DNA of 64,000 nt from Nocardia sp. CNY236 (GTDB lineage: Bacteria > Actinomycetota > Actinomycetes > Mycobacteriales > Mycobacteriaceae): contig NZ_KI519394.1 of assembly GCF_000482385.1 (NCBI RefSeq), forward strand, positions 105,972 to 169,971, read 5' to 3'. Of this stretch, positions 26,444 to 49,217 are shown in pieces (position 1 is the first letter of the stretch; every line of letters begins with the position of its first letter). The notes below the pieces were generated by a model. That model was not told the DNA's origin, ran no database searches, and saw only the letters and a program-made list of their open reading frames with translations. The position numbers and the translations under genes were made by a program.

Positions 26444-26471
26444 GGGAACCTCTCTACGGTTGGGGGACGGA

Positions 26472-27582: not shown

Positions 27583-27600
27583 GAACCTCACCCTTATCTC

Positions 27601-28419
27601 TCAGCTTCCTGCCACTACGCGATGGTTGGAGCCGCGCCCGGGCAGCCGGCTCGCCAAGAAATCCACGGCAGACCCCAGTGCGCCGATCACCAGGATGATG
27701 GCGACAACCTGGTTGTAGGCCAGCTGATCTCGGGCATTCAGGATCTGATACCCCAGACCTGATCTGACCCCGAGCATCTCCGCAGGCACCAGCACGATCC
27801 AGGCGGTACCCAGCCCCAGACGGAGTCCGGTCCGCACGTGATCGCGGACGGCCGGAATGATCACGACCCGCAGTAGTTCTATGCGGGTCGCATGAAACGA
27901 TCGGGCCACGTCCAGGAAACCCCGATCGATGGCATGCACCCCTGAGACGGTATTGAGCAGAATCGGCCAGACGGCAGCGGCCGCGACCAGGAAGTAGACC
28001 GGTTGATTGCCGATGCCGAACACGGCGATGGCGATCGGCGTCCAGGACAACGGCGAGATCATGCGCAGGAACTGAACGACGGGCGCGGCGGCCCGCTCGA
28101 CCCGCGTGCTCAGACCGATGAGCAGCCCCGCCGGCACCGCGATCACCGTCGCGACGGCCAGGCCGATCACCAAGCGCCACAGGCTGATCGCCGCATCCGA
28201 GACCAGCACCCCGCGGTGATACAGATCAGCGACGGCCGGCAGCACCCGCTGCGGGGCGGTTTGGCGCAGCAGCGAATGCTCTGGCGACAACACCGAAGTC
28301 GCCAGCCACCAGAGCAGCACGGTGAGGGCGACGGCCGCCCCCGGCGGCCAGAGCTTGGCGAGCGCCGATCGGGCCGTGTCACCGGGACTGCGGCGGGATC
28401 GAACGATGGTAGAAGTCAC
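27601..28419 (-). CDS. ABC transporter permease, SsuC/TauC/NrtB family
   Basis: The 272-aa permease has about six transmembrane helices (WPPGAAVALTVLLWWLATSV... to AIILVIGALGSAVDF) and the inner-membrane coupling motif region RVVIIPAVRDHVRTGLRLGLGTAW (EAA-loop position; only part is typical). The GTG start overlaps the stop of the binding-protein gene by four bases (GTGA), showing translational coupling. It forms an importer with the two upstream genes. Substrates of this family are nitrate, sulfonates, taurine or pyrimidine precursors; this one is unknown. Confidence 0.9.
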   Translation of the reverse strand: MTSTIVRSRRSPGDTARSALAKLWPPGAAVALTVLLWWLATSVLSPEHSLLRQTAPQRVLPAVADLYHRGVLVSDAAISLWRLVIGLAVATVIAVPAGLLIGLSTRVERAAAPVVQFLRMISPLSWTPIAIAVFGIGNQPVYFLVAAAAVWPILLNTVSGVHAIDRGFLDVARSFHATRIELLRVVIIPAVRDHVRTGLRLGLGTAWIVLVPAEMLGVRSGLGYQILNARDQLAYNQVVAIILVIGALGSAVDFLASRLPGRGSNHRVVAGS

Positions 28420-29579
28420 AGCGGTTGCACCTGTTCGGCTCTGGAGAGGTCTGCAGGCAGCCCAAAGGCTCGGTTTCCTCCTCGCGCGGCAATTGAATTC
28501 AGCACAAAGCTGTCGTCGACCAGCCCCCGGTGCGCCGTGGCCGGATCCAGGTCGTCGAGAAAGCGGCGGTCCCCGTCGACCACGGTGTCGTGCATGGACT
28601 CGACCAGCTTTCGGGTGAACCCGGGATAGGGATAGGGCTGGAATCCCACCAGCTGCGGCAACCACTCCGGGTGGCGCAACGGGCAGGGCGGCTTCGGGTA
28701 GGTCAGCGCCGTGCGCACCGCTGGAAGTTGCTGGGGCAGATACCTTCCCGCAGTCAACGCGGTCGCGGCCCGATCACGATCGGCGGTGATCCGCAGCTGC
28801 GCGGCGACCACCGCGTCCATCACCGACTGCACCGCGCTCGGCCGCTGGGCGATCACGTCGTCCCGGGTCACCAGGACACAGCAGGCGTGTTCGCGCCAGA
28901 CGTCGCCCAGGAAGGTGTGGATCCGTCCGATGTTCTTGATCTGGGCGATGGCATTGAACGGATCGGCCACCACGTAGCCCGCGATCGACCGATTCGCCAG
29001 GGCGGGGACCATATCCGACGGGCTCATGACGATGAGTTCGACGGTGCGCCGGGACCGCGACGCGCTGCGCCGGACCACCGGCGTGATGTCGTGTGCCCGC
29101 AGCATCTGCTGCACGATGATGTTGTGGATCGACCACCAAAAGGGGATGGCGACCTGGGATCCGGCCAGCTGGTCGAGATCGGTGATGTCCGGGGCGACCG
29201 TGAGCGCGGAGCCATTGGTGTGATTCCAGCCCAGCATCCGCACCCCGGCGCCGAGCACACGCTGCAGTTGCAGGGCCATCGGCATCAGCAAATGCGCGAC
29301 GTCGATCTGACGGGAGACGAACGCCTCCGCCAGCGCGGCCCAACTCCGGAACAGAACGGGTTTGCCGGCGCTCACCTCGGCGGAGTAGAGGCCCGCGGCG
29401 TGCGCGATCAGCAAGGGTGCGGCGTCGGTGATCGGCAGATACCCCACGCGCAGGGCACTCTCGTGCCGCCGCCCGGCGGTCGCCGCGCTGCGCGCCAGGT
29501 CCGCCGAGCCGAAAAGCCCTGCGGCGACGGTGAGTCCGGTCGCGCCGGCCAGCAGGTGCCGCCTCGAGATCTCGGTCAA
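28416..29579 (-). CDS. Tat-exported ABC substrate-binding protein, SsuA/NMT1-like
   Basis: This 387-aa protein starts with a twin-arginine signal (SRRHLLAGATGLTVAAGLFG). It continues as a type II periplasmic-binding protein: LRVGYLPITDAAPLLIAHAAGLY, AEAFVSRQIDVAHLLMPMAL, SQVAIPFWWSIHNIIVQQML and IAGYVVADPFNAIAQI, the pattern of sulfonate/nitrate-type binding proteins. The TTG start overlaps the ATPase stop (TTGA). The double Arg-Arg suggests folding before export or a bound cofactor. The ligand is unknown. Confidence 0.88.
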   Translation of the reverse strand: MTEISRRHLLAGATGLTVAAGLFGSADLARSAATAGRRHESALRVGYLPITDAAPLLIAHAAGLYSAEVSAGKPVLFRSWAALAEAFVSRQIDVAHLLMPMALQLQRVLGAGVRMLGWNHTNGSALTVAPDITDLDQLAGSQVAIPFWWSIHNIIVQQMLRAHDITPVVRRSASRSRRTVELIVMSPSDMVPALANRSIAGYVVADPFNAIAQIKNIGRIHTFLGDVWREHACCVLVTRDDVIAQRPSAVQSVMDAVVAAQLRITADRDRAATALTAGRYLPQQLPAVRTALTYPKPPCPLRHPEWLPQLVGFQPYPYPGFTRKLVESMHDTVVDGDRRFLDDLDPATAHRGLVDDSFVLNSIAARGGNRAFGLPADLSRAEQVQPL

Positions 29580-30346
29580 GGAACTGCCATCTCGTCCGGG
29601 TGGTACTGCTGGAGGATGTCGTCCCGAAGCGCCAGCGCGTCGCCGGAGCGCACGTCCCGCCATCCCCGGCGGATCCGGCCTCGGTCGAGCAGCACGATTC
29701 GGTCCGCGAGAGCGACCGCCTCGTCGACGTCGTGGGTGATGAGCACGACCGTCGCCCCGAGCTCGGCGACGAGCTCGGACAGCCACTGCCGCGAGTCGAT
29801 TCGGGTCGCCGGGTCCAGCGCGCTGAAGGGTTCGTCGAGCAGCAGCAGCCGCGGCCGGGTCGCTGCCGCGCGCAGCACGGCCACGCGCTGCGCCTGACCA
29901 CCCGACAGCTCGTTCGGGTATCGGCCCGCGAGGCCGTCCAATCCGAACCGGCGCAGCAGGGTCAGTGGATACTCGCGGTCGAAAACGTCGCGGTGAGCAG
30001 CGAATCGTCCTGCGAGCGACACGTTCTCGAGCACGGTGAGCCATGGCAGCAGCAGCGATTGCTGGAACACCACCCCGGTGCGCGGCCGTTCACCGTCCGC
30101 ACTACAGCGCACCGTTCCCGCGGTCAACTCTGCCAATCCCGCCAGTACCCGCAGCAGGGTGGACTTGCCGCTGCCACTGGGGCCCAGCACGGCGAGGAAC
30201 TCACCACGATCGATCGAGAGGCACACGCTGTCCAGCACGACGGTGTCGCCGAACTGCTTCGTGCCGCCGTCAACTGTCAATTCGGTTCGCAAACGAGGAC
30301 ACCTTCGTGAGGGGAATCGGGTGGGCAGAACGAGTACCGACCACAT
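29576..30346 (-). CDS. ABC transporter ATP-binding protein, SsuB/TauB family
   Basis: This ATPase of up to 256 aa has Walker A GPSGSGKST, Q-loop VFQQSLLLPWLTV, signature LSGGQAQRVA, Walker B LLLLDEPFSALD and switch His in LITHDVDEAV. The domain begins near TVDGGTKQF, so the start may be a TTG at 30292 instead of the GTG at 30346. It is the first gene of the importer set ATPase-binding protein-permease, with overlapping ends. Confidence 0.92.
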   Translation of the reverse strand: MWSVLVLPTRFPSRRCPRLRTELTVDGGTKQFGDTVVLDSVCLSIDRGEFLAVLGPSGSGKSTLLRVLAGLAELTAGTVRCSADGERPRTGVVFQQSLLLPWLTVLENVSLAGRFAAHRDVFDREYPLTLLRRFGLDGLAGRYPNELSGGQAQRVAVLRAAATRPRLLLLDEPFSALDPATRIDSRQWLSELVAELGATVVLITHDVDEAVALADRIVLLDRGRIRRGWRDVRSGDALALRDDILQQYHPDEMAVP

Positions 30347-31036: not shown

Positions 31037-32464
31037 TCAACGCCGCGTCAGTCGAACGCGGAAGCCACCCTTGATCGTCGGGGCCAGACCGGTCTCCTCA
31101 CGGAAGGTCCAGTTCGGCGGGATCTCCACCCGGTACCGGCTCAGGATCAACCCAACCAGGTAGGGCGCGATCAGGTATCCCAGCTGGGCGCCGGTGCATC
31201 GGTGCGGGCCGGCGCCCCAGGCCAGGAAGTGCAGCAGGCGCGGCTGATCCACCCGCTTGCTGTTGTCGTAGAACCGGTTCGGATCGAAGGTGTCGGGATC
31301 GGTCCACCACCGCAGATCCCGGTGGATCGCCGAGATGGGAGCGCCCAGCATCGTGTTCGGTGCGATGTCGAGTCCCTGGAGGTTCCCTCCGACCGCGGTG
31401 AAGCGCAGTAGCAGCGGGAACCCCTGCATCCGAATCGATTCCTCGAAACACGCGCGCACCCACCGCAGGCTGCGCACCGAATCGACCGAGGGCTGCGACA
31501 GATCGATGGTGCCGCATTCCTCCACCACGCGATCGGTCGCCTCGGCGTCGAGCAGCGTGCGCACTACGGTCTGGGTGATGGCGCCGGCGGTGGTGCCGTA
31601 CGACGCGCTGGTCATCGTCGCCACGTCGAAGCAGAGGTCCCAGAACGTCATCGGGGTCTTGAGCTTCTTGTACCCGAGCACCATGCCGTCCAGCACATCG
31701 CCGTAGGTGCCCAGGGCCGGCGAATTCTGGCGCTCGACAACCCGATCCTTGACGATCTTCGCGGCGGACAACACCGTCCACGGCCGGATCTTGTACGGGC
31801 CCCAGGGGCGAACCAGATTCGGCGGATCGGCGATCTTCAGCGTCGAGCCGAGGAGCTTGGTGAACGTCGCCATGCCCTCGTGCAGCTCACGCATTTCCTT
31901 GGCCGTGAACGACTCGGTGTAGGTCTGTTTGAGCACGCCGCGCAGCAGCGTCTGGAAGATCGCTTCTTGCAGATCGGTGACGCCGTCGGCATCGGTCGCC
32001 TCACCGATGTTCGCGTCGAGGGTATCCAGGTAGGCGTCGACATTCGCCTGGAACGTGCTCTTCAGGCCGTCACGGGTGACCAGGGGGCTGACGATGCGGC
32101 GTCGCTCACGGAAGATCTCGCCCTCGATGAACGACAGACCGTTCTGCCGCTTCGCCATTGCGGGATGGTAGTTGCCGAACTTGCTGTAGTCGCCGGACGT
32201 ATCGTCCATCACCCGGTGCACGTCTTCCGGGTTACCCAGGACGATCAGGTCCCGCAGCGGCAGCTGGATCCGGCAGACGTCGCCGTACCGCCGGATCGCC
32301 TCCCGCAGGAACTTATTGCGGTCCTTGGCGAACTCGGGGTACGAGCCCATGATGCGGTGCCCCGGAGGGCCCGGCAGATGTTTGTTCGAGAGGCGACGGC
32401 TGGTGATGCTGGTGGCGGAGTGTATCTTCGTGGCCGCCCCGGCATGCGGGCATTGATTGTCCAT
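31037..32464 (-). CDS. atypical cytochrome P450 (second of two)
   Basis: This 475-aa protein has the ExxR motif (FEESIRMQG), the RF/PNRFYD region and the Cys haem loop FLAWGAGPHRCTGAQLG, so it is a P450. The I-helix region reads TMTSASYGTTAG: the usual acidic residue before Thr is Gly, and the A/G-G-x-D/E-T-T pattern is not kept. Loss of that acidic residue often marks P450s with unusual chemistry (isomerisation, coupling or peroxide use). It is separated by 11 bp from the UbiE-like gene upstream. The substrate is unknown. Confidence 0.88.
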   Translation of the reverse strand: MDNQCPHAGAATKIHSATSITSRRLSNKHLPGPPGHRIMGSYPEFAKDRNKFLREAIRRYGDVCRIQLPLRDLIVLGNPEDVHRVMDDTSGDYSKFGNYHPAMAKRQNGLSFIEGEIFRERRRIVSPLVTRDGLKSTFQANVDAYLDTLDANIGEATDADGVTDLQEAIFQTLLRGVLKQTYTESFTAKEMRELHEGMATFTKLLGSTLKIADPPNLVRPWGPYKIRPWTVLSAAKIVKDRVVERQNSPALGTYGDVLDGMVLGYKKLKTPMTFWDLCFDVATMTSASYGTTAGAITQTVVRTLLDAEATDRVVEECGTIDLSQPSVDSVRSLRWVRACFEESIRMQGFPLLLRFTAVGGNLQGLDIAPNTMLGAPISAIHRDLRWWTDPDTFDPNRFYDNSKRVDQPRLLHFLAWGAGPHRCTGAQLGYLIAPYLVGLILSRYRVEIPPNWTFREETGLAPTIKGGFRVRLTRR

Positions 32465-32475
32465 CGAAAATCCTT

Positions 32476-33180
32476 CTACTTGCGGAAGACGTGCGCGCGG
32501 ACCATGCCGCCGTGGTATCGCGCTTGGGACTCCAAGGTCAGACCGACGCTCTCACAACGAGACAGCGTGAATTCCACGCCGCGATCCGACTCCACTTCTT
32601 TGGTCATGTGTGCGACGGGATCCAGGCCGAACAGCCCGGCGATCCGGCGAATCAGGAGCAGACGGAGCTTCAGCACAGTCAGCAGCAGCTCGTTGTCGGG
32701 CAGTGCGAGTTCGATCAGCAGGAAGCGCCCGCCGTCGCGCAGCACCCGGGTGACCTCTAACAGCGCCGCCGCGGAGTCGTCCATGTCGTCGAGCGCGAAG
32801 CACATGACGACCGCGTCGAAACTCTCCGAGTCGAATTCGAGCGCCTCCGCGCTGCCGCGCATCAGGCTCCATTCGGTTCCCGGCCGTTCCCGGCGCAGCC
32901 GCGCCAGCTTGGGCTCGGCGACCTCGAGCATCTCCTCGTTGAGGTCGACCGCGTGGTAGGAGATCGGAACGCGATACTCGGCGGCCAGCGCGGACGCGAT
33001 AGCGGCGGTGCCCGCCGCGACATCCAGTACTCGGGCACCGGATTCGAGCCGCAGCAGCCGTACCGCCGCGCGGCGCAGCCTGGCGTCGCCGCCGAATGTC
33101 ATGACCGTGTTGACCAGGTCATAGCGCGGAGCGATCTTGGTGAACATTGCCTGAGGTGTGGCAGGACGTGTCCCGACCAT
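32476..33180 (-). CDS. UbiE/COQ5-type C-methyltransferase
   Basis: The 234-aa protein has the UbiE N-terminal signature MFTKIAPRYDLVNTVMTFG, motif I VLDVAAGTAAIA, a motif II at YHAVDLNEEML and FDAVVMCFALDDMDD. Authentic UbiE/MenG methylates the quinone ring of demethylmenaquinone. Here the gene is inside the cluster, next to the ThDP enzyme and the UbiA-type prenyltransferase, so C-methylation of a prenylated aromatic or related ring is a reasonable inference. A housekeeping MenG would be expected elsewhere. Confidence 0.88.
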   Translation of the reverse strand: MVGTRPATPQAMFTKIAPRYDLVNTVMTFGGDARLRRAAVRLLRLESGARVLDVAAGTAAIASALAAEYRVPISYHAVDLNEEMLEVAEPKLARLRRERPGTEWSLMRGSAEALEFDSESFDAVVMCFALDDMDDSAAALLEVTRVLRDGGRFLLIELALPDNELLLTVLKLRLLLIRRIAGLFGLDPVAHMTKEVESDRGVEFTLSRCESVGLTLESQARYHGGMVRAHVFRK

Positions 33181-33212: not shown

Positions 33213-36200
33213 TCATTCGTGTCGCCCTATCCGGCGCAGCACCTGACCCGCCGCGTCCTCGCCGACCGCCTTCACCATCGACCAGGCGCCGGCCCGCGCG
33301 GACCGACCGTCCCGCAGCCAGCCCGATACCAGCCCCACGACCTGGCGCAGGTGGATCTGCCCAGCCAGCGCGGGAGCCTCCACCGCGGGAATGCGCGCGT
33401 CGATCAGCGTCGGGCCGTCGGTACGGAGCGCCGCCCGGAACGCGTCGCCGAATTCCCCGGCCGTGCGGGCCGTCACCGCGGACAGCCCGCAGTGCCGCGC
33501 GAAGCTCGCGAAATCAAAGGCCGCGAATTCCGAGGAGGTGTCGGGCCACCCCATGATCCAGCTCTCGAACTTGATGGCCGCCAGCGCGCCGTTGTTGAAG
33601 ACCACGATCACTGCGGTCGAGTCGAGCTGCGCGGCATTCCGCAACTCGGCCAGGGTGATTCCGATACCGCCGTCGCCGACGATCGCCACCGAGATGTCCG
33701 CCGGATTGCGCACCGCGACGTCCACCGCCGCCGGCACCGCGAACCCCATCGTGGCGAACGAGGCGGTCCACAGGTAGCGGGTGGCTGACCGCACATGGCG
33801 GTAGGCCCACAGCGTGTTGATGCCGACATCCACGCTCAGGGTCGAGGAGCGCTCGGCGCACGCGAGCTCGTGGTCGATAATCTGCGCGGCCGTGACCGCC
33901 CGCAGTTCGCGCGTCCCTTCCCGCGGCGCCTTGCGCGCGGCCGCACGGGAAGCGGGCAGGCGGCTAACGGCGCCGCGCTCGGCCGAACAGGCGAGCAGCG
34001 CCTCCAGCAGCTCCCGGGCCTCACCGAGCAATCCGATCGAATCCTGGGGCAGGCGAAGAAAAGTCAGCGTATCGGTATTGAGCGAGATCACCGGGCCGGT
34101 ACCGACCAGCTCGAACGCTGAACCGCGCCACGAGACACCGACCAGCACGACGACCTGACTCTGACGGATGGTCTGCATCGCCACGTCGTGCCCGGAGGTG
34201 CCCACCAGGCCGTCGCAGCGATCCCCCAGCACATCCGCGGCCAGCGCGCCCATCGTGCAGTACAGCGGAGCGCCGATGCACGCGGCCAATTCGATCAGTT
34301 CCCGGCGGGCGCCCGCGGCGCCACGACCGACGACGATCGAGACGCTCGGCGCCGCCGAGAGCAGCTCCGCGGCCCGGGCGATCTCCTCGTGCCCGGCCAT
34401 CATGCTGCCGGGCATGCCGATCAGAGATTCCGGAATATCGAATGCGCCGGCGGCTTCGACCAATGCGGCACCGGTGACCGACGCCAGCGCGGCGCCGGTC
34501 ACATGGATGTGCGTCACTCCCCTACCGCCGCCCGCGACAGTCAGCAGAGCGTCGCGCAGGCGGATCGTGTCCCCGGCTGTGCCGTCCAGCACGACAGAGA
34601 TCGCCGAGATCTCGCCCAGCACGTCGACCGGGTCCAGGAACCAGCGGTCGATCTCGAACGAGATCAGCAGTACCGTCGCGCTGTCGAATGCGGCGTCGTA
34701 GAGGCCGTTCAACTGCCCGAGCAGCTCGGCCGACGAGGTAACCACCGCAGCGGCGGGCTTGCCCGTCGCCTTGAACACCGCGGTCGCCCGCATCGCGGCC
34801 GCCTGTGTGTCGGCGACCACGTGCACGTTCAGATCGGCCCGGTCGCTTCGCATATCGAGGCGGCGACGGCTGGTCGGCGACAGATACACCGAGTCGATTC
34901 CCCGGACCGACAGCGCCGCGAGCAGATCGCTCGCGAAACCGGCGACTTGCGCGTCGGGAGCTGCGGGCGAGGACTCCAGCTCCACCGCGCCGGTGAGGAT
35001 CACGACCGGTCCGGTCTCGCGGCCCGCCTGCTCGATGGCCGAATCCAGTTCCGCCGGCGTGGCCGCCCACAGCACCGGGATGCCGAACGCCCGCGCCAAG
35101 TCCCGGATCGTCGCACCCGAAGCTGCGGCGCACACCACGGTCACCGGAACTGAATACCTTGCGGACGTGGATAACTCGGAGATGTACTGGTCCAGCGACG
35201 CGAGTTCGGTCAGCGCGTAGCAGCGCCTGCCCGCCGCGAGGGCGAGGCCCATCGCCATCGGGAGCGCCGAACCCTCGGCCTCCAGGTTCCAGGCGCTGTG
35301 GACATCGGCGTGCCCGCTCAAGAATCTGCGCGAAAGTCGTTGTACGGTACCGGGATCCACGGCCAGGGTCGCGCCCGCTAACCGCCGCGCGAGCACCTCC
35401 CACCCGGCGGGCGGTTGCTGGTCTCGCGATTTTCCGGCCGGGCGCTCCGCGGTGTCGGCCGACGCCCCGGTGCGGCTCGCGACGGCGGAGACCAGGGATT
35501 CGAGGATGCCCGCGATATCGCCCGCGACACCAATCCGGCGGCTGCCCGCGTCGAACCCGGAGGTCGCCAGATCGGTGATTTCGATGAGGGTGTCCGCGGC
35601 GGGAAAGTACTTCCGCACACCGGTGGTGGGACGGCCGATCAGCAGCACACTGTCCGCAGTGGCCGGCGCGGCGCTGCCATCGTTGACCGGGGTGACCAGC
35701 GTCTCGGGTATTCCCGATTCCGGCAGAGCCCACAGCCGGACATCCAACGCGTCCGCGAGCGTCCGTGCGCGATCGGCCGCTTCCCGGCTGCCCACGCCGA
35801 GAACGATCGGCGCCGGATGCGAGCACAGGTAGTCGGCGAGATCGTCGATTCGCTTCTTGTCGACCTTCGTGGCGCTGCGGCAATCCAGCCGGTATGGACT
35901 CGGCTGTTCGGTCTCCTGCACCGGCGTGTGCAGCAGGTCGGACGGAATGGCGACGTGCGCCGAGGTCCGTTCGAGGCGGATGCCCAGCATGATCTGGTCG
36001 AAGACGCCTATCTGGTCGGCCGACATGATGTCCGACGACCGCCACGCGCCGTCGCGGAAAAGCCGCGAGGAATCGATCTCCTGGAACGAACTGGTGCCGA
36101 TTCCGGCGAGGGCGACCTGACCCGAGATCGCCAGCACCGGCACGCGATCGTACTGCCCGTCGTAGACCCCGGGCAGCAGATGCGTCGCTCCGGGTCCGGC

Positions 36201-36449
36201 CGTGCCGAAGCACACGCCGACCGTGCCCGAACCCCGGGCATAGCCGACCGCCATCCACGAAGCCGCGCTCTCGTGGCGGACCGCGATCAGTCCGATCTCG
36301 TCACGCCGCCCGACCGCGTCGACGAGACAGTTCACCGACTCGGCGGGCATTCCGAAGATGTAGCGCACATCATTTCGGACCAGTCGATCCACGATCGCGT
36401 CCGCGAACCGCGGATGCCCCAACAGATCGGCACCCAAGTGGGGATTCAT
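33213..36449 (-). CDS. double ThDP-dependent enzyme (fused acetolactate-synthase-like pseudo-dimer)
   Basis: This 1078-aa protein has two acetolactate-synthase-like modules in tandem, twice the usual length. Module 1 (about 1-495) has an intact pyrimidine (PYR) domain with the catalytic Glu in AVRHESAASW (Glu60). Its pyrophosphate (PP) domain has lost the GDG...NN metal motif (TEL at 414-416, then AAA). Module 2 (about 496-1078) has the reverse: the catalytic Glu position is Thr548 (VVADTQAAAM), whereas the PP motif is intact (GDGGIGITLAEL at 925, NNG at 952). ThDP sites form between a PYR of one chain and a PP of the other, so the fusion should keep exactly one composite site. ATG at 36449 overlaps the aminotransferase stop (ATGA). 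The substrate is probably a 2-oxo acid. Confidence 0.9.
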   Translation of the reverse strand: MNPHLGADLLGHPRFADAIVDRLVRNDVRYIFGMPAESVNCLVDAVGRRDEIGLIAVRHESAASWMAVGYARGSGTVGVCFGTAGPGATHLLPGVYDGQYDRVPVLAISGQVALAGIGTSSFQEIDSSRLFRDGAWRSSDIMSADQIGVFDQIMLGIRLERTSAHVAIPSDLLHTPVQETEQPSPYRLDCRSATKVDKKRIDDLADYLCSHPAPIVLGVGSREAADRARTLADALDVRLWALPESGIPETLVTPVNDGSAAPATADSVLLIGRPTTGVRKYFPAADTLIEITDLATSGFDAGSRRIGVAGDIAGILESLVSAVASRTGASADTAERPAGKSRDQQPPAGWEVLARRLAGATLAVDPGTVQRLSRRFLSGHADVHSAWNLEAEGSALPMAMGLALAAGRRCYALTELASLDQYISELSTSARYSVPVTVVCAAASGATIRDLARAFGIPVLWAATPAELDSAIEQAGRETGPVVILTGAVELESSPAAPDAQVAGFASDLLAALSVRGIDSVYLSPTSRRRLDMRSDRADLNVHVVADTQAAAMRATAVFKATGKPAAAVVTSSAELLGQLNGLYDAAFDSATVLLISFEIDRWFLDPVDVLGEISAISVVLDGTAGDTIRLRDALLTVAGGGRGVTHIHVTGAALASVTGAALVEAAGAFDIPESLIGMPGSMMAGHEEIARAAELLSAAPSVSIVVGRGAAGARRELIELAACIGAPLYCTMGALAADVLGDRCDGLVGTSGHDVAMQTIRQSQVVVLVGVSWRGSAFELVGTGPVISLNTDTLTFLRLPQDSIGLLGEARELLEALLACSAERGAVSRLPASRAAARKAPREGTRELRAVTAAQIIDHELACAERSSTLSVDVGINTLWAYRHVRSATRYLWTASFATMGFAVPAAVDVAVRNPADISVAIVGDGGIGITLAELRNAAQLDSTAVIVVFNNGALAAIKFESWIMGWPDTSSEFAAFDFASFARHCGLSAVTARTAGEFGDAFRAALRTDGPTLIDARIPAVEAPALAGQIHLRQVVGLVSGWLRDGRSARAGAWSMVKAVGEDAAGQVLRRIGRHE

Positions 36450-37543
36450 CTGTGGCACGCGCTTGCCTCCATTCGGCTGTAACCCTCCGCGAGTACGCCG
36501 ACCACGTCGGCTGTGTGTTCCGGCGCGGGAACGGTGATCCGGACGCCGAGGGCCGGATACTCACGCACCGCAATCGCCGAGCGGGTGAAGAAATCTACGA
36601 GAGATGCCGGATGCCGCGTCGGCACCCAGACGAAGTTGCCGCACGATTCGGGGACCACCAGGCCGTTCTCGCGAATCGAGGTAAGGAACGCCGTGCGGCT
36701 GCGCACTACCTCGTCGACCTGGGCGGCGAGTTCGTCGCTCACATCCAGCGAGGCGACGGCCGCGGCCACCGCCAGCCGATTCACGCCGAAGGGCATGGCG
36801 GCCGTGCGGCAGGCGCCGATCAGCTCGCCGTCGCCGACCGCGAATCCCACCCGGAGACCCGCCAGACCGTAAGCCTTGGAGAAGGTCCGCATCACGACCA
36901 GGTTTCGGTGCGCGCGTGTGAGCCGGAGCACGGCCGAGGCATCGGCGGTGCGGTCGAAGTCGATGTACGCCTCGTCCACCACGACGACCGTGTGCCGCGG
37001 CACCGCGGATAGCACCCGGTCGATCTCGTCAGGGCGCACGGGCTCCCCGGTCGGGTTGTGCGGCGAGCAGATCAGCAGGGCGGCCGCGTCGTCCCCGGCC
37101 GCAGCCACCATCCGATCCAGCGTCTGCCAGCGAATCATACTGCCCCGCAACGGAACCGGCGTTCCACCGGCGTCCACCACGACCCGCTCGTAGGCGTCGA
37201 ACGCCGGAACCGCGTAGACAACCCGACGGCCTGCGCCGGCGACCCGCCGCAGAATGTAGCCGAGCACGCCCACGCTGCCCGGCCCAACGATGACCTGGTC
37301 GGGGCCGCAGCCCACGAACTCGGCGATGGCGCCGCGCAGCGCACCGTAGGAGGCGGCGGGGTACTCCGCCGCGCGATCCACTTCGGCCTCGATCGCCTTG
37401 CGGACAGACGGCAGCGGAGTGAACGGCAGAGCATTGTTCGAAAGGTCCAGCCGGACAGTCGAATGATCACGGTCCTCGCCCGCGCGATACTCGTCCCACA
37501 CGACACCCACGGGCGCCCGCAGGACCGTCTCCAGCGCATCCAT
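36446..37543 (-). CDS. PLP-dependent class I/II aminotransferase, HisC-like
   Basis: This 365-aa fold-type I aminotransferase has the HisC-like pattern: LSNNALPFTPLPSV, SYGALRGAIAEFVG, ICSPHNPTGEPV, VVVDEAYIDF and the PLP lysine in MRTFSKAYGLAGLRVG. No his operon is nearby, so it is not expected to act in histidine synthesis. HisC relatives in pathways often transaminate aromatic amino acids or amino-alcohol phosphates. It overlaps ubiA upstream by one base (a GTG at 37546 is also possible) and the ThDP gene downstream by four bases, linking production of a 2-oxo acid to the ThDP enzyme. Confidence 0.9.
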   Translation of the reverse strand: MDALETVLRAPVGVVWDEYRAGEDRDHSTVRLDLSNNALPFTPLPSVRKAIEAEVDRAAEYPAASYGALRGAIAEFVGCGPDQVIVGPGSVGVLGYILRRVAGAGRRVVYAVPAFDAYERVVVDAGGTPVPLRGSMIRWQTLDRMVAAAGDDAAALLICSPHNPTGEPVRPDEIDRVLSAVPRHTVVVVDEAYIDFDRTADASAVLRLTRAHRNLVVMRTFSKAYGLAGLRVGFAVGDGELIGACRTAAMPFGVNRLAVAAAVASLDVSDELAAQVDEVVRSRTAFLTSIRENGLVVPESCGNFVWVPTRHPASLVDFFTRSAIAVREYPALGVRITVPAPEHTADVVGVLAEGYSRMEASACHR

Positions 37544-38610
37544 CACACAACATCCTTATTTCGGCGGGTATCGAGTTTCAGCGCGTCCATGAGGAAGATG
37601 ACGACCAGCGACCCGGCCACGATGCCGACCGACGAAAGAGAGGGATCCACCAGCAGGATCCAGGTCGACAGGTAACCCGTCGACACCACCATGTCGAAGC
37701 GAAGCATGTTGTTCGCCGAGTGGTTGTCGTCGCGAAGGATCATCCGGGCGGCCTGCACGCAGACAATCGGGAACCACACCAGAGTCAGCAGGAATTTGAC
37801 GGCGAATTGCCCACTGGCCACCAGAAATACCGGACCCAGATAGACCAGGATCGTTCCGGTCGCGGCCACGATGGCCGCCTGCCTGCGAGTACTGCTGAGC
37901 GTCGCCGAGGTGACCAGCCCGGCGCTCTTGTCGCCGTGATAGTCGGGCAGGTTCTTCACCAGCCCCTTGGCTACGAACCAGATGAAGAGATAGGCGGCCA
38001 TCAGCATGAACGCCCAATTGCCGAGCACCGACGGTCCATGCTTCGCCACCGCAGCTGCCATCACGAACGGAAACGCGACGTCCAGCGCGAAGAGCCCGAG
38101 GGAGGGCAAAGGCCGTGCCTTCACCCGAAAGGGCGGCAGCGAGTACTGATGGGCGATGACGATGCAGATCAGCGTCATCCCGACGAACACCGGACCGACC
38201 GGAACCGACAGGGCCAGCATGAGCAGGCACACCACATAGGCGCTCTTCAGCAGCTTGCGGCGGCCGTACAGGCCGAGCAGGTACAGCCGGGCCGGGAGGT
38301 TCTCGTTGTCCTCCTCGACATCCGAGTAGCCGTTGAACAGATTGGCGACCGCGCTGTACAGGAAGGTAATCGCGAAGCCTAAGAATACGTTCGGGCCGAT
38401 TTCCAGACCTTGCATCTTGCAGGAAAGGCAGAAGGCCAGCATCCCGGGCAGGCAGGTGCGCGGGCGGGCGAAGGAAAGGAAGAGTTCGATTCGCTCCCGA
38501 ATTCCCTTCGCGAATCCCTCGGACGAGTTCACCCAGTCAATTCGCTTGTCTGCCGATTTGCTCAGAAACTCGTCAAGTGTAGGTATAGAAATTGTTCCAA
38601 CCACGATCAC
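37543..38610 (-). CDS. UbiA-superfamily membrane prenyltransferase
   Basis: This 355-aa polytopic membrane protein has the first Asp-rich motif NGYSDVEED (NxxxDxxxD, residues 93-101), the second DYHGD (223-227) and YSLPPFRVKARP, which is diagnostic of UbiA prenyltransferases. The family attaches polyprenyl groups to aromatic rings or, in some branches, cyclises terpenes. The N-terminus of about 45 residues is soluble. The GTG start at 38610 has only a weak ribosome-binding site. It heads the long minus-strand transcript, and an inverted repeat probably bound by the cluster regulator lies 109-136 bp upstream. Confidence 0.9.
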   Translation of the reverse strand: MIVVGTISIPTLDEFLSKSADKRIDWVNSSEGFAKGIRERIELFLSFARPRTCLPGMLAFCLSCKMQGLEIGPNVFLGFAITFLYSAVANLFNGYSDVEEDNENLPARLYLLGLYGRRKLLKSAYVVCLLMLALSVPVGPVFVGMTLICIVIAHQYSLPPFRVKARPLPSLGLFALDVAFPFVMAAAVAKHGPSVLGNWAFMLMAAYLFIWFVAKGLVKNLPDYHGDKSAGLVTSATLSSTRRQAAIVAATGTILVYLGPVFLVASGQFAVKFLLTLVWFPIVCVQAARMILRDDNHSANNMLRFDMVVSTGYLSTWILLVDPSLSSVGIVAGSLVVIFLMDALKLDTRRNKDVV

Positions 38611-38718
38611 AGCTCACTTGTCATATGCATTGCAAATTGACCCGCTCCAGGATTTGACGTTCATCACCTCGAAGCTATGACACGAACTTACCCCGAAAAC
38701 TGTTGCAGCCAAGTGAAT

Positions 38719-38746
38719 GTCCAACTGCAACCTTCATCAGTTGAAC
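38719..38746. promoter_or_regulatory. candidate operator of the cluster regulator, upstream of ubiA
   Basis: GTCCAACTG-N10-CAGTTGAAC forms an inverted repeat in the 169-bp gap between hypF and ubiA. It shares its left half, TGTCCAACTG, with the site at 43865-43893. The architecture resembles the StrR-type operator (GTTCGACTG-N11-CAGTCGAAC, from memory), and the cluster encodes a ParB/StrR-like regulator. The spacer here is one base shorter. Confidence 0.6.
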
Positions 38747-38779
38747 ACGGCAGCGATTTCGCATACGAAAGGGCCCGAG

Positions 38780-41089
38780 CTAAGCGTTCGCGTTCGCGAC
38801 CAGCAGCTGGCCGAGGGCGATGCCGCCGTCGTTGGGGGGTACCTGGCGGTGGGTGTGGACCTCGAATCCGTCGCGGCGGAGCGTCAGCAGGCAGTTGATC
38901 AACAGGAACTCGTTGAGGAATACGCCACCGGAGAGCACCACCTGACGGATGCCGGTGTCGCGGGAGACCTCGCGGCACCGGTGTCGCACCATCGCGACCA
39001 CGCCGGAATGGAAGCGGCGGGCGATGGTCGCGATCGGCGCCCCCGCGGTGAGATCGTCGGCCATCGCACGGATCGCCGGCCGGAAGTCGACCTCGGTCGC
39101 GGTGTCGTCGAACGGGTATCCGTCGGCCATCGCGAGGTCGCGATCGAGCAGGCCCTCCAGCTCGATCGGTCCCTGGGCTTCGTATTCGGCGTATGAGCAG
39201 ACGCTCAGCAGGGCGGCCACCCCGTCGAACAGGCGCCCCATGCTCGAGACCTCGGGCGAATTGATGCCGCGCGCCCGCATCGTCGAATACACGTGGCGGC
39301 GGTCGGGTTCGAGCGCGGCGATGGCTGGAAAGGTCCTGGCTGCCAGGTCGATATCGCCGAACGCGTCCAACGCGATCGACACCCCGGTCCGGATCGGTTC
39401 GTGGACCGCGCGATCGCCGCCGATCAGCGCCAGGCTCCGCAGATGCGCTACCCGCTCGACGCGGTCGAAGCCGCCGACCAGGAACTCCCCGCCCCAGGTG
39501 GTGCCGTCGGTGCCGTATCCTGCCCCGTCGAAGACCACCCCGATGGCCTGTCCGGTGAGCTGATTCTCGGCCATGCACGCGGCCATGTGCGCGTGATGGT
39601 GCTGGACGAACACCGGATCGCCGGGTTCTCCGATGCCCTCCCGCATACTGCTGCTGCGGAATTGGGGATGCAGGTCGTAGACGCCGGCCTTTGGGCGCAG
39701 GTCGTAGAGCGCCGCCAGGTGCGCCGCCGTCTTGCGGTGCGAGGCGAAGGTTTCGTCGTTCTTCAGATCGCCGATGTGCTGGCTGAGGTACACCCGGGAA
39801 CCGGCGGACAGGGCCACCGTCGTCTTGAGTTCGGCGCCGTAGGCCACCAGGGGAGCAAGCGGGCGGCCCACCTCGACCGGGTATGGCGCGTACCCGCGCG
39901 CCCGGCGCAGGAAAGTCGTTACGCGACTGTCCAATTCGGGATGGAAGGACATCCGCACCACGGAATCGTCGACCCTGATCTCGATGTCGCGGTCGTGGTA
40001 GAGGATCACGTCGGCGATATCAAGCAGCTGCGTGAGGGCGTCCTCGTTGCGGTGCACGATGGGGTAGCCGGAGATGTTGCCGCTTGTCATGACGACCATG
40101 TCCAGGCCGGACTCGTCGAGGAGCAGGTGATGGTGCGGCGCCGAGGGCAGCATCAGGCCCAGATTCGGATTCCGCGGGGCGACGCTCTCCGGTACCGCTC
40201 CGGAACGCTTGCGGGCCAGCAGGATCGGCCGTGCGGGGGACCGCAGCATCGCTGCTTCCGCCTCGGACAATTCGGCGATCCGATGGGCGGTGGCCAGATC
40301 CCGGACCATGACGGCGAAGGGTTTCGAATCCCGGCGTTTGCGTGCACGTAGCAGCGCCACCGACGCGCCGCTGCTCGCGTCGACGGCGAGATGGAAACCT
40401 CCGACGCTCTTGACGGCCGCGACCTGGCCCGCGACCAATTCCGTTGCGCACCTGTGTAATGCGTCCTCGCCCTGGAGGACCCTGCCGTCGCGGTCGGCCA
40501 GGAACAGACTCGGCCCGCAGTCCGCGCAGGCATTCGGCTGCGCGTGGAAGCGCCGGCTCAGCGGATCCCGATACTCTCGATCGCAGTGCTCGCACATCGC
40601 GAAGGAGTGCATGGTGGTCTGCGACCGGTCGTAGGGCAGCGCCCGGACGATCGAATACCGCGGACCGCAGTTCGTACAGTTGATGAACGGGTAGCGGTAC
40701 CGGCGGTCGGCCGGGTCGCGCAACTCGGCCAGGCAGTCGGCGCACACGTGCGTATCCGCTGGCACAACAGTAAGTTTCGCTCCGGCATCCGCACTGCGCA
40801 CGATCTCGAAATCGGTGGCGCCCGACGGTCCCGCCGACTTGTCGAGGGCCATCACACCGTCGACTCGGGCCAGCTCCGGGGCCTTGCCGTGCAGCTCCGC
40901 GCTGAACAGCCGCAGCGTGGACTCGTCGCCGCTCGCCTTGATGAGCACGCCCTCGGGATCGTTGCGCACCCAGCCGGTCAGCCCGTGCGCACGGGCGAGC
41001 TTGTAGACGAACGGCCGGAAGCCCACTCCCTGAACGACACCGGTGACCCGGATCGTCCAGGTCGCTCGGTCGGTCGGCCGAGTCAGCAC
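38780..41089 (-). CDS. hypF: HypF-type carbamoyltransferase, full length
   Basis: This 769-aa protein transfers a carbamoyl group from carbamoyl phosphate to the C-terminal Cys of HypE, via carbamoyl-AMP. All HypF parts are present in order: an acylphosphatase domain (VVQGVGFRPF, Arg25) and two zinc fingers (CADC...CTNC and CEHC...CADC). A YrdC domain (RKRRDSKPFAVM, TSGNISGYP) and a Kae1-like domain (QHHHAHMAACMAE, DGAGYGTDGTTWGGEF, LSGGVFLNE, PPNDGGIALGQ) follow. The GTG start at 41089 overlaps the end of hypE by seven bases; a longer open frame upstream is antisense-like and not coding. No hypA, B, C or D and no hydrogenase genes are in the window. Confidence 0.93.
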   Translation of the reverse strand: MLTRPTDRATWTIRVTGVVQGVGFRPFVYKLARAHGLTGWVRNDPEGVLIKASGDESTLRLFSAELHGKAPELARVDGVMALDKSAGPSGATDFEIVRSADAGAKLTVVPADTHVCADCLAELRDPADRRYRYPFINCTNCGPRYSIVRALPYDRSQTTMHSFAMCEHCDREYRDPLSRRFHAQPNACADCGPSLFLADRDGRVLQGEDALHRCATELVAGQVAAVKSVGGFHLAVDASSGASVALLRARKRRDSKPFAVMVRDLATAHRIAELSEAEAAMLRSPARPILLARKRSGAVPESVAPRNPNLGLMLPSAPHHHLLLDESGLDMVVMTSGNISGYPIVHRNEDALTQLLDIADVILYHDRDIEIRVDDSVVRMSFHPELDSRVTTFLRRARGYAPYPVEVGRPLAPLVAYGAELKTTVALSAGSRVYLSQHIGDLKNDETFASHRKTAAHLAALYDLRPKAGVYDLHPQFRSSSMREGIGEPGDPVFVQHHHAHMAACMAENQLTGQAIGVVFDGAGYGTDGTTWGGEFLVGGFDRVERVAHLRSLALIGGDRAVHEPIRTGVSIALDAFGDIDLAARTFPAIAALEPDRRHVYSTMRARGINSPEVSSMGRLFDGVAALLSVCSYAEYEAQGPIELEGLLDRDLAMADGYPFDDTATEVDFRPAIRAMADDLTAGAPIATIARRFHSGVVAMVRHRCREVSRDTGIRQVVLSGGVFLNEFLLINCLLTLRRDGFEVHTHRQVPPNDGGIALGQLLVANANA

Positions 41090-42099
41090 AGCCGGGGCAG
41101 CTCTGCGCCGCGCAGGGGTTGCAGCGAGGATTCGCGGCCGGCGGCATCCCGCAGGAACACCTCGCCGCCATCGAGGGCGGTGACCGTGCCGATGACGGTG
41201 GCTTGCTGTCCGTACTCGTGCCCGCGCAGTGCGGTGAGTACGTCCTCGGCCACCGCGGGGTCGAGGAAGATCGCCAGGCACCCCTCGTTGGCGCAGTGCA
41301 GGGGATTGATCCCCAGCATGTCCGCCGCCATCGCGGTCTCGTGCTGGATGGGCAGGGCCGGGGCGTCGATCACGATGTTCTTGTCCAACTTGGTTGCGTA
41401 CTCGTGCAATACGGCCGCGAGCCCGCCGCGCGTGACATCGCGCATCGAGCGGATCGCCCCGGCCGGAGCTGCGGCGAAGAGGTGATCGATCATCGTGTTG
41501 AGCGGTGCGCAGTCGCTGAGCACCCGGCTCTCGAAGCCGAGCCCGTCCCGGATCGACAGCAGGTGCACGGTGTGGTTGCCCAGCGGGCCGGACAGGATGA
41601 CCGTGTCGCCGGGGCGCACGGCGCCCATCCGCAACGGCTCGCGTCCAAAGAATCCGACGCCACTCGTGTTGAGGTACAGCTGATCCGCTTCCCCAGCGCG
41701 GACCACCTTGGTATCGCCGCACACGATCTGCACTCCGGCCTCGCGTGCGGTCTCCCGGATCGAGGTAAGCACCTGGGCCAGCCGGTCCAGGGGCAGTCCC
41801 GTCTCGAGGATCAGCCCGAGCGTGAGATAGCGGGGGGTCGCTCCGGAGACCGCGAGATCGTTGACGGTCCCGCACACCGCGATCTTCCCGATATCGCCGT
41901 TGCCGAAGTACGGCGGATCGACGACGAAGCTGTCGGTGGTCATCGCGAGCTGGTTGCCCTCCGCGGGCAGGATCGCGCTGTCCTCCATTTCGCCCACGTA
42001 GACCTCGCCCAGGGTCTCGGCGATGAATGCCACCAGCTCGCCCGACAGCAGGGCGCCGGTGCCGTGGTCGAGCTGGATCTGCTGGGCCGCGAGCGTCAC
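41083..42099 (-). CDS. hypE: HypE-type protein (thiocyanate-forming), with C-terminal Cys
   Basis: This 338-aa AIR-synthase-fold ATPase matches HypE in length and sequence: MTTDSFVVDPPYFGNGDIG, GTVNDLAVSGATPRYL, CGDTKVV and MRDVTRGGLAAVLHE. It ends LPRLC, equivalent to the PRIC tail whose Cys is carbamoylated by HypF and then dehydrated with ATP to a thiocyanate. The GTG start at 42099 overlaps the stop of the isochorismatase-like gene (GTGA); an in-frame ATG at 42198 lies inside that gene. Both overlaps show tight coupling with its neighbours. All residues for cyanide formation seem to be present. Confidence 0.93.
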   Translation of the reverse strand: MTLAAQQIQLDHGTGALLSGELVAFIAETLGEVYVGEMEDSAILPAEGNQLAMTTDSFVVDPPYFGNGDIGKIAVCGTVNDLAVSGATPRYLTLGLILETGLPLDRLAQVLTSIRETAREAGVQIVCGDTKVVRAGEADQLYLNTSGVGFFGREPLRMGAVRPGDTVILSGPLGNHTVHLLSIRDGLGFESRVLSDCAPLNTMIDHLFAAAPAGAIRSMRDVTRGGLAAVLHEYATKLDKNIVIDAPALPIQHETAMAADMLGINPLHCANEGCLAIFLDPAVAEDVLTALRGHEYGQQATVIGTVTALDGGEVFLRDAAGRESSLQPLRGAELPRLC

Positions 42100-42680
42100 G
42101 GTGTCTTCGTCTCTTTCCGGGGGATGCCGCCGGTCTCGTCCAGCGTCCGAATAATCTCTTCGGAGTCCGCGACTGTGGCGCAATAACTTTCGAGCCATTC
42201 GAGGGCGCGCTCCCGGTCGGCTTCGAGGGCCGAGAACACGCAGTCGCTCGGCACCGCGACGATGTAGCCGCGGAAGAACGCGTCGGCGGCCGTGGTCTGG
42301 ACACAGATCTGGGTTTGCAGGCCGATGAGGATCAGCGTCTCGATCCCGATCTGCTGGAGCCGGTCGTGCAGATCGGTCTCGTAGAAACCGCTGTCCTTGC
42401 TGCGCTCCTGGATGATGTCGTCCGAGGCCAGGAACTCGCGAACGACCTCGGCTCCCGAGGTGCCGCGCACCGCGGGGACCCGGCCGTCGTACCGTTCGGC
42501 GAGCGGATCGTCCGGCTCGTTCAGCAGCTGTAAATGGAAAATGGGATAGTCGCGCTTGCGCATGGCGGACAGGAATTCCGTGACATGCGGTGTCGCAGCG
42601 GCGATCGCAGCCTGCCGTTCCGGGTTCTTCCCGACGATATCGTATTGCAAACCGCTTGTTATCACTGCAATTTTGGACAT
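42096..42680 (-). CDS. isochorismatase-like cysteine hydrolase with altered triad
   Basis: This 194-aa protein has the isochorismatase-fold layout. The catalytic Cys lies in GLQTQICVQTTAADAFFRGY and the Lys in ERSKDSGFYETDL. The first Asp of the usual IDMQxD motif is Gly here (ITSGLQYD), so the Asp-Lys-Cys triad is incomplete if aligned correctly. The family includes nicotinamidases, isochorismatases and other amide or ester hydrolases. It is 6 bp downstream of the regulator gene and overlaps hypE, so it is probably a partner in the cyano chemistry or a hydrolase for the product. Confidence 0.85.
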   Translation of the reverse strand: MSKIAVITSGLQYDIVGKNPERQAAIAAATPHVTEFLSAMRKRDYPIFHLQLLNEPDDPLAERYDGRVPAVRGTSGAEVVREFLASDDIIQERSKDSGFYETDLHDRLQQIGIETLILIGLQTQICVQTTAADAFFRGYIVAVPSDCVFSALEADRERALEWLESYCATVADSEEIIRTLDETGGIPRKETKTP

Positions 42681-42686
42681 GACGAA

Positions 42687-43730
42687 CTACTCCAGTATCT
42701 CGGTTAGAACCTGTTTGTGAATCTCAGGCCCACTTGCAGTCCGAGGGCTGTCTTGCTCGGTGATCGCGTGGCATTGTAGTTCCTGGGCGATGCTCGACCA
42801 ATTCGCCGCGCATTGCTGCGCGAATTCGAGGATGTGATCCACCGTATGGGGAAGAATGGCTTTGGATATCTTCTCGATATCGCTGCCCTTCACGGCCCGA
42901 TGATGCATCCAGCGCAGGAGATCGCGTCCACTGGTGCTCATCCGGAGTGCGGGATCTCGGGACAGCAACGCCAGCAGGGTGTCGAGATCTGTGGGCTTGC
43001 GGGAGTCCGGGGGAGTGAGTCGATCGGTGATGTACCCGGGGTTGTTCTCCCGTACCGATACAGGCTGGTCGGTTTTGTTCTGGTCGGGGCGGAGGAACGG
43101 GTACTCCCCGCGTTTGAGCTTGGTGCGGACATCGCGAATGGTCGACGGGGACAAGCCCACTTCCTGGGCGATGCTCCGCAGCGACGCGTGCGGGCGGGCC
43201 ATGATCAACTCGGCGGCGGTGCGCCGGGCCGAGTTGGTGTCGACGGGCCGCAGGCGGCCGTCACTGCCCAGTCGATGGCTCGACGGCTGATCACCGTCGA
43301 GCCGGCTCCGGATCGACGCGACGGTCTTCGCTGACAGGCCTGCGGTGGCTGCGATCGAGCGATCCGACCAGTGCGGGTGGGTCTGCACGATCCGTTCGGC
43401 GGCCGCGCGCCGATCGGTCAGGGGCAACGGCAGGCCGTGTGTGGTGTTCTCCCGGACTCCGACGATGAACGCGAGTTTCTCGGAACCGTCCATCAGATAC
43501 GCGTCGATATGCGTGAATCCCTTGAGCCGCGCGGCAAATGTGCGGTGGAATCCGTCGATAACGCGCATTGTCGGCCGATGGACGAGAATGGGCGGCAAGG
43601 GCCACTGCGCCTCGACCAGGCGTTCAATGTGTGAATAGTCTTCCCCCTTGGATCGGGGGGACCCCACCGTTACCAGCGATGCAATTTCCACGGAGGTCTT
43701 GACGCGTTTCAAATTCGAATACTGATTCAA
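42687..43730 (-). CDS. ParB/StrR-like pathway regulator with helix-turn-helix
   Basis: This 347-aa protein starts with a ParB-like nuclease-fold domain (about 1-100; PPILVHRPTMRVIDGFHRTFAA, HIDAYLMDG). Two similar helix-turn-helix segments follow: HPHWSDRSIAATAGLSAKTV and RPHASLRSIAQEVGLSPSTI. This combination is that of StrR/NovG-family activators of antibiotic clusters. It heads the hypEF transcript, and an inverted repeat lies 135-163 bp upstream, consistent with autoregulation. Confidence 0.88.
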   Translation of the reverse strand: MNQYSNLKRVKTSVEIASLVTVGSPRSKGEDYSHIERLVEAQWPLPPILVHRPTMRVIDGFHRTFAARLKGFTHIDAYLMDGSEKLAFIVGVRENTTHGLPLPLTDRRAAAERIVQTHPHWSDRSIAATAGLSAKTVASIRSRLDGDQPSSHRLGSDGRLRPVDTNSARRTAAELIMARPHASLRSIAQEVGLSPSTIRDVRTKLKRGEYPFLRPDQNKTDQPVSVRENNPGYITDRLTPPDSRKPTDLDTLLALLSRDPALRMSTSGRDLLRWMHHRAVKGSDIEKISKAILPHTVDHILEFAQQCAANWSSIAQELQCHAITEQDSPRTASGPEIHKQVLTEILE

Positions 43731-49164: not shown

Positions 49165-49217
49165 GGCAGGATGTGAAGCGCCAACTCACACATCAGCCAC
49201 GAACCGAAAGAACCGCC

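Follow-up and report, generated by a model that had tools for sequence, protein, structure and literature searches.

A HypF, HypE and cysteine hydrolase trio in Nocardia sp. CNY236 and its proposed role in cyano-group delivery to small molecules

HypF and HypE are known as maturation proteins of [NiFe] hydrogenase. HypF makes carbamoyl-adenosine monophosphate (carbamoyl-AMP) and S-carbamoylates HypE, HypE dehydrates the S-carbamoyl group to a thiocyanate (or to an isothiocyanate, by infrared spectroscopy), and for the reductive transfer of the cyano group (CN) to iron the proposed driver is HypD, an iron-sulfur protein (PMC12134894, PMC4506123; papers are cited by PubMed Central (PMC) number, from excerpts of their text). 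The conserved HypE tail motif is given as PR(I/V)C (PMC4506123). Here we analysed 64,000 nucleotides of the genome of Nocardia sp. CNY236 (contig NZ_KI519394.1, positions 105,972 to 169,971; "the window"), in which a HypE gene overlaps both a HypF gene and an isochorismatase-like gene inside a biosynthetic cluster. Our results suggested that HypF, HypE and the dedicated cysteine hydrolase probably act as a module which delivers a cyano group to a small molecule.

A closer precedent is a Streptomyces cluster reported with decRiPPter (PLoS Biol 2020, PMC7794033), for which a novel function was suggested. It is similar in having hypE and hypF without other hyp genes, together with an ATP-grasp ligase. 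It differs in being a candidate cluster for a ribosomally synthesized and post-translationally modified peptide (RiPP), and the excerpt of that paper makes no mention of a cysteine hydrolase, a separate clade, other cluster types or a mechanism. Apart from it, the excerpts of the open-licence PMC literature describe HypE and HypF only as hydrogenase maturation proteins. No characterized small-molecule pathway using the pair was found in that literature, although subscription and preprint reports could be missed. An earlier note on this DNA, made from the sequence alone, had known of no natural-product pathway with HypEF; this holds for characterized pathways, but the oddity of one hypEF cluster was already in print. 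The same excerpts describe neither the trio nor its clade and spread, nor do they offer a mechanism.

Carbamoyl and nitrile chemistry in natural products is also known from other enzymes. The O-carbamoyltransferases TobZ and GdmN use carbamoyl-AMP chemistry starting from carbamoyl phosphate. Unlike HypF, they have the YrdC-like and Kae1-like parts in reversed order and use a hydroxyl acceptor; the HypF system is described as having acylphosphatase and zinc-finger parts in addition (PMC6022934). AetD and other nitrile synthases make carbon-nitrogen triple bonds in natural products, but AetD, in the excerpts available, rearranges an amino acid substrate oxidatively, whereas the CN unit here would derive from carbamoyl phosphate.

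The three genes of the trio in the window (window positions) are as follows.

42096..42680, minus strand: isochorismatase-like cysteine hydrolase (Pfam; alignment of 48 members; AlphaFold2 model and structural matches)
41083..42099, minus strand: HypE (carbamoyl dehydratase), 338 amino acids, GTG start, C-terminal end ELPRLC (TIGR02124; matches to HypE structures in PDB; conserved columns)
38780..41089, minus strand: HypF (carbamoyl transferase), 769 amino acids, GTG start (Pfam; TIGR00143; alignment to 3vth; conserved columns)

HypE overlaps HypF by 7 bases and the isochorismatase-like gene by 4 bases. Pfam showed that HypF contains an acylphosphatase domain, two HypF zinc fingers, YrdC and both Kae1-like parts in the canonical order, and thus not the TobZ-type layout (Kae1-like before YrdC-like, without acylphosphatase or zinc fingers). 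HypE contains AIRS and AIRS_C. Both proteins scored above the cut-offs of the NCBIfam equivalogs (HypE, 401.5 bits versus 251.6 for TIGR02124; HypF, 721.9 bits versus 466.1 for TIGR00143), and the solved HypF structure 3vth aligned with residues 12-766 of the window HypF. The TIGR02124 score and the terminal Cys place the window HypE in its family, while its tail is PRLC instead of the hydrogenase-type PR(I/V)C. The complete, mutually overlapping pair and its overlap with the isochorismatase-like gene, as described in the earlier note, were confirmed with exact coordinates and all domains present.

The earlier note had reported HypA to HypD and any hydrogenase to be absent from the window. We extended this to the whole genome (5.3 Mb, judged 100% complete), in which HypD, HypC, HypA and the NiFe large subunit had no match; HypB was not searched genome-wide. 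Among 14 control genomes, the same searches were positive in 4 for HypD, 4 for HypC, 7 for HypA (4 above the cut-off) and 5 for the large subunit (4 above the cut-off), and E. coli was one of the control genomes giving matches. Consistently, the possibility of a hydrogenase locus elsewhere in the genome lacking its own hypEF found no support, since none of these four proteins was detected. The HypF zinc finger matched only the window gene, so the genome has one HypF.

The copy number of HypF was compared with the presence of HypD in other genomes carrying the trio (L-numbers denote loci and G-numbers denote genomes). Fifty of 55 trio-type loci were entered into the genome-wide HypD search (L037, L050, L054, L057 and L073 were left out) and the genome of L017 was missing, so that 49 genomes, of which the completeness is not stated, were covered. 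HypF copies in the same 49 genomes were counted by HypF zinc fingers, two per HypF. HypD was above the cut-off in 20 of the 49 genomes, and all of these 20 had at least four zinc fingers, that is, at least two HypFs. In contrast, 28 of the 29 HypD-negative genomes had exactly two zinc fingers and hence a single HypF (G039, with a weak partial HypD match under the cut-off, was scored negative). No genome among the 49 had HypD together with a trio-type HypF as its only HypF. This pattern indicates that the trio HypF is an addition to the hydrogenase set and not a replacement for it.

To describe the surroundings of the pair, genome contigs were scanned for HypF, and the best 80 relatives of a longer list were taken with flanks of at most 10 kb. 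The trio of isochorismatase-like cysteine hydrolase, HypE and HypF was present in 53 of these best 80 loci, which is no natural frequency. E. coli HypA, HypB, HypC and HypD as queries (E ≤1e-8) gave no match in any of the 53 trio loci. The hydrolase was found in 53 of the 55 loci with trio-type HypE and HypF (about 12 kb distant in L035), and no hydrolase match occurred in the classical hyp-operon loci, which were mostly Geobacter-like. Counted by HypE, a hydrolase was present at no more than 6 kb for 63 of 67 trio rows and for 0 of 23 canonical rows (copies kept; 11 of the canonical loci were only about 4 kb long). The conserved unit is therefore the trio with the cysteine hydrolase, rather than the HypEF pair.

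The HypE proteins of the trio also form a clade of their own. In a tree of 80 rows, 57 trio rows were split from 23 canonical rows with support of 100/100; the program gave a warning about long branches that meet, and the midpoint root serves for drawing only. The trio rows included two copies of the window HypE with different starts, and 56 distinct rows were used for column comparison. HypEs were assigned to the trio or canonical type by 50% identity to the window HypE and not by the tail, and the canonical set is narrow (11 rows of the genus, 10 Geobacter-like, one of Burkholderiales and E. coli). By the tree labels, trio-type HypE occurs in Actinomycetota, Pseudomonadota and Myxococcota; Bacillota and Chlamydiota have one locus each, and these two loci are those without the hydrolase. 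The C-terminal end was PRLC in 56/56 trio HypEs and PRIC in 23/23 canonical ones, and the terminal Cys was present in 56/56 trio HypEs. Six columns were fixed differently between the two groups, while 64 columns were at least 95% conserved in both, including DTK (129-131), NEG (271-273) and the terminal Cys. For HypF (50 trio rows versus 19 canonical rows, the latter nearly all Geobacter-like), 144 of the 179 canonical-conserved columns were kept and none was fixed differently. The column pattern fits a HypF whose job would be unchanged and a HypE that may pass its group to a new partner. Strong HypE matches in 150 Nocardia genomes likewise fell into two groups, one of 74-100% identity (9 genomes, trio type) and one of about 37-44% (canonical), and both types occurred in three genomes among the matches listed.

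Compared with HypE-HypF of [NiFe] hydrogenase, the window pair is thus alike in the full HypF domain set, HypE fold, conserved motifs, terminal Cys and equivalog scores. It is unlike in its genome, which has no match to HypA, HypC, HypD or the large subunit, and in its separate clade, PRLC tail, six fixed columns and hydrolase partner. Genome content, copy number, phylogeny and recurrence strongly support the recruitment of HypEF away from hydrogenase.

Some relatives of HypE and HypF were seen outside the trio. A HypE-like protein of a Streptomyces sp. NBC_01276 plasmid (L129, 9959-10978) is about 46% identical, ends in PRLA and lacks the DTK motif. It has no annotated HypF within 21 kb, adjoins acyl-CoA carboxylase and crotonyl-CoA carboxylase/reductase genes, and is possibly a HypE relative with a different role. 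Three loci labelled Rhizobiales or Rhizobium (L045, L051 and L059) carry HypF without a HypE or hydrolase match in the locus, and after HypF all three have the same series of eight conserved gene families.

The trio recurs in clusters of different content. We grouped 52 loci by a scheme of our own, which put 43 loci into six types and left 9 outside. Locus genes were called with a simple caller that missed some genes, and the function names rest on one representative per family, with NCBIfam scores under the cut-off except for the diaminobutyrate aminotransferase family. Type B was defined by either of two gene families.

Type A, 5 loci: UbiA, aminotransferase and thiamine diphosphate (ThDP) enzyme
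Type B, 13 loci: GNAT and/or diaminobutyrate aminotransferase, often with ATP-grasp, M20 peptidase and MFS proteins
Type C, 8 loci: ATP-grasp, diaminobutyrate decarboxylase-like, desaturase-like and methylaspartate mutase S-like proteins
Type D, 11 loci: threonine transaldolase-like enzyme, most with C26 hydrolase and non-ribosomal peptide synthetase (NRPS) genes
Type E, 3 loci: sugar-like genes and DegT aminotransferase
Type F, 3 loci: HAD phosphatase; L055 also has a GlmS-like protein

A carbamoyl phosphate synthase-like large chain was found in 2 of the 3 type E loci (L031 and L019; 965 amino acids and a shortened 540 amino acids), while L041 had none. One more match, partial and on the other strand, was present at the border of L057. 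Given the proposed substrate, a carbamoyl phosphate synthase dedicated to the cluster would make sense. For the amino-sugar type, known products such as trehazolin and allosamidin were considered as candidates; a search of the open-licence PMC literature naming them gave no link to the trio. The recurrence of the trio in several unrelated clusters suggests an undescribed route for placing a cyano group on natural products.

Trio-type HypE was also found on plasmids of Paraburkholderia, Citrobacter, Salmonella, Streptomyces and Rhizobium. In seven annotated records (six plasmids and one E. coli chromosome), HypE had the PRLC tail and the hydrolase had the Asp-containing motif TNDLQ; in the Rhizobium record a transporter gene stands between HypE and HypF. 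Three enterobacterial records showed a compact arrangement, in which a LysR regulator is followed by hydrolase, HypE, HypF, HAD phosphatase and MFS transporter. The trio was chromosomal in 14 of 5,426 complete E. coli genomes, and in E. coli Z0117EC0005 the five-gene run (L131, 9001-14904) lies beside integrase remnants and tRNA-Asn and looks like a genomic island. A Streptomyces clavuligerus plasmid (L126, 8089-15326) carries a variant of the trio with arginase-family, ATP-grasp and DUF3865 proteins, and its hydrolase is on the opposite strand.

The earlier note had proposed that the pair was recruited to supply CN. Genome content bears out the recruitment away from hydrogenase, whereas cyanylation and acceptor are inferred only. 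As the chemistry of the families is established and the HypE and HypF sequences are intact, loading and dehydration can be expected here as well. HypF would hydrolyse carbamoyl phosphate, form carbamoyl-AMP and load the carbamoyl group onto the C-terminal Cys of HypE, and HypE with adenosine triphosphate would dehydrate it to a protein-bound thiocyanate. Since HypD is absent, HypE-S-CN would stay electrophilic, and it could act as a CN donor attacked by an organic nucleophile of a pathway intermediate. We favour an amine as the acceptor. The product would then be a cyanamide or, if closure or addition follows, an isourea or guanidine, with a carbon-bound nitrile as the alternative. The preference for an amine is a weak argument and a lead only: each of types A to E brings an enzyme which produces or uses amines, and in type F the GlmS-like protein of L055 is of this kind. 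The cysteine hydrolase may take CN from HypE on its invariant Cys or may process the cyanylated product. HypE-S-CN formation, acceptor, product and hydrolase role are a best guess from the sequences.

The hydrolase was examined by structural modelling and alignment. The AlphaFold2 model (predicted local distance difference test score, pLDDT, 91.8) matched isochorismatase-like cysteine hydrolases with Z scores of 21-24 over the 50 entries listed, and its structural neighbours include N-carbamoylsarcosine amidase, biuret and triuret hydrolases, RutB and nicotinamidase. The trio hydrolases therefore share with this family the fold, the nucleophilic Cys (Cys126, invariant in 48/48 aligned members) and, in 41/48, the Asp and Lys which we take to complete the catalytic triad, with positions read from the alignments. 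They differ from it in being coupled to HypE and HypF and, in the same 7/48 members, in having Gly for Asp and Arg for Lys. These seven, with Gly10 and Arg93, are the window hydrolase and six Nocardia relatives, so that the window hydrolase has no complete triad. Judged from these residues, most trio hydrolases look capable of amide chemistry, while the window clade appears to have lost the acid-base residues and kept the thiol. A relay of CN on that thiol is plausible in the window clade because the acid-base residues are gone and the thiol remains. Among 397 genomes of the order, drawn evenly from a larger group, four hydrolase relatives were found at E ≤1e-50, the one of the window included.

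Several observations weigh against a cyano-delivery module. Thiocyanate formation, acceptor and product are predictions from sequence, and PLP (pyridoxal phosphate) enzymes are common in such clusters, which weakens the argument for an amine. The window-clade hydrolase lacks the family Asp and Lys, so one mechanism may not fit all trios. L037 and L054 have trio-type HypE and HypF with no hydrolase match in the stretch covered. G004 has four zinc fingers, that is two HypFs, yet no HypD. In the Nocardia genome G185, relatives of the ThDP enzyme, UbiA, aminotransferase and cytochrome P450 of the window (41-46% identity) occur without a trio-type HypE. In Paraburkholderia, the trio and HypD share a contig in G036, and on plasmid pBPHY02 of Paraburkholderia phymatum a hydrogenase operon is found about 4 kb away from the trio, which has ectB and a GNAT gene in front of it. 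The pBPHY02 record has two HypE-like places; with the second set, the trio would not need to share in the hydrogenase role, though it may do so.

The pBPHY02 case and the equivalog scores speak for the pair as a displaced hydrogenase maturation set or a functionless relic. We rejected the displaced set: the window's genome has no match to HypD, HypC, HypA or the large subunit and has one HypF, and the copy-number pattern over the 49 genomes points the other way. The separate HypE clade with its own fixed columns and the full-length frames conserved across phyla also argue against both versions, and we consider this explanation very improbable. A transfer of the carbamoyl group instead of CN, with HypE as a carbamoyl carrier from which the hydrolase passes the group on, would suit the structural neighbours of the hydrolase that act on ureido groups or carbamoyl amides (N-carbamoylsarcosine amidase, biuret/triuret hydrolase and RutB), and carbamoylation is frequent in antibiotics (PMC9633730). 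However, HypE retains the canonical dehydratase motifs and the terminal Cys, and a complete HypE would be superfluous, since O-carbamoyltransferases use carbamoyl-AMP on antibiotic hydroxyls without it (PMC6022934, PMC9633730). This alternative is unlikely, although it is the strongest of those weighed.

The group might also go elsewhere than to a small molecule. If the hydrolase served to liberate cyanide or thiocyanate as free compounds, for use in defence or signalling, this would fit the three enterobacterial records, whose minimal five-gene run has no obvious acceptor-making enzyme. We regard it as improbable, because the HAD phosphatase and the exporter suggest a phosphorylated organic intermediate and the trio is elsewhere embedded in long and differing biosynthetic clusters. 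About equally doubtful is a transfer of CN to a metal, a protein or a peptide such as a RiPP-like precursor. The excerpt of PMC7794033 puts its hypEF cluster among candidate RiPP clusters, and an ATP-grasp family (C5) occurs in 13 of the 52 loci, but type D has NRPS genes, type F has phosphatase or sugar-phosphate-like genes, and the window's genome has no HypD or HypC match.

Delivery of a cyano group to a small molecule is thus the reading we retain. In its widest form, which we judge to be evenly balanced between true and false, a widespread mobile trio would use a protein thiocyanate derived from carbamoyl phosphate as an electrophilic CN donor. Without arginine and without substrate oxidation, it would give cyanamides, nitriles, isoureas or guanidines, and it would be plugged into prenylated, peptide, amino-sugar and diaminobutyrate pathways, with a five-gene version in some E. 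coli. If true, biology would have in the trio a general means of installing CN units, and clusters so far unexplored could be picked out by it for compound discovery. Work on the chemistry in a laboratory host should be feasible, since some E. coli carry the five-gene version. If HypE-S-CN serves an organic acceptor without HypD, it would also support the need for HypD in the reductive step of hydrogenase maturation.

The window cluster was compared over the 150 Nocardia genomes. Its ThDP enzyme (E ≤1e-150) was found in 9 of them, the window's included, and 8 of these 9 coincide exactly with the set of genomes that have the window-type trio (eight, again including the window's); a ninth genome with trio-type HypE, G057, has a type B cluster. 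The chance of this eight-and-eight overlap would be 1.9e-13 if the genomes were independent, which they are not. In G093 and G196 the trio is on one contig and the ThDP cluster on another. Apart from this separation in two genomes, the trio accompanies the ThDP enzyme in the genus, and we therefore rejected chance as the reason why the pair adjoins the cluster. The presence of HypEF in homologous clusters of relatives, on which the earlier note had made its proposal depend, thus held for eight of the nine ThDP genomes and failed for the ninth (46% identical). This trio-free cluster in G185 suggests that the trio adds a step to a core able to exist alone. The suggestion that the ThDP enzyme supplies the acceptor did not generalize, with a ThDP match in only 4 of the best 80 loci.

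The other genes around the trio are listed below.

42687..43730, minus strand: protein earlier called ParB, probable cluster regulator; TTG start (weak helix-turn-helix matches, no NCBIfam match)
37543..38610, minus strand: UbiA-type prenyltransferase (Pfam; NCBIfam under cut-offs)
36446..37546, minus strand: HisC/CobD-like PLP aminotransferase (Pfam; NCBIfam under cut-offs)
33213..36458, minus strand: ThDP enzyme of double length, 1081 amino acids (two ThDP-like halves; co-occurs with the trio in the genus)
32476..33180, minus strand: UbiE-like methyltransferase
31037..32464, minus strand: cytochrome P450
30374..31000, minus strand: methyltransferase
29576..30346, minus strand: ABC transporter ATPase, start uncertain (conserved in L119, L120 and L122)
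28416..29579, minus strand: NMT1-like substrate-binding protein
27601..28419, minus strand: ABC transporter permease
25583..28180, minus strand: open reading frame that includes both an MFS transporter and an alpha/beta hydrolase (gene called at 25583-27499; possibly a fusion, possibly two separate genes)
24186..25556, minus strand: second cytochrome P450, possibly part of the cluster

Downstream of HypF, the order on the same strand is UbiA, aminotransferase, ThDP enzyme, methyltransferase, P450, methyltransferase and the ABC importer with the NMT1-like protein. The UbiA, ThDP enzyme, methyltransferases and P450s named in the earlier note are all there, and the HisC/CobD-like aminotransferase is added to them. 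The helix-turn-helix-like gene is kept upstream of the trio in Nocardia. In L119 (3299-6548; genome G093) the ThDP enzyme is in two pieces with a break at about residue 614, which reflects two genes or a frameshift. In L004, L005, L007, L024 and L122 an SBF-type transporter and an alpha/beta hydrolase stand between HypF and UbiA. In the window, the gap between HypF and UbiA is only 170 bases (38610-38780), and the alpha/beta hydrolase is beyond the MFS part; the window cluster is taken to be rearranged, because this spacing and the place of the alpha/beta hydrolase differ from those in the relatives. Transposase-like pieces (DDE_Tnp_4 and IS481-type N-terminal parts) lie upstream of the cluster at 44209-44997 and 49173-50402.

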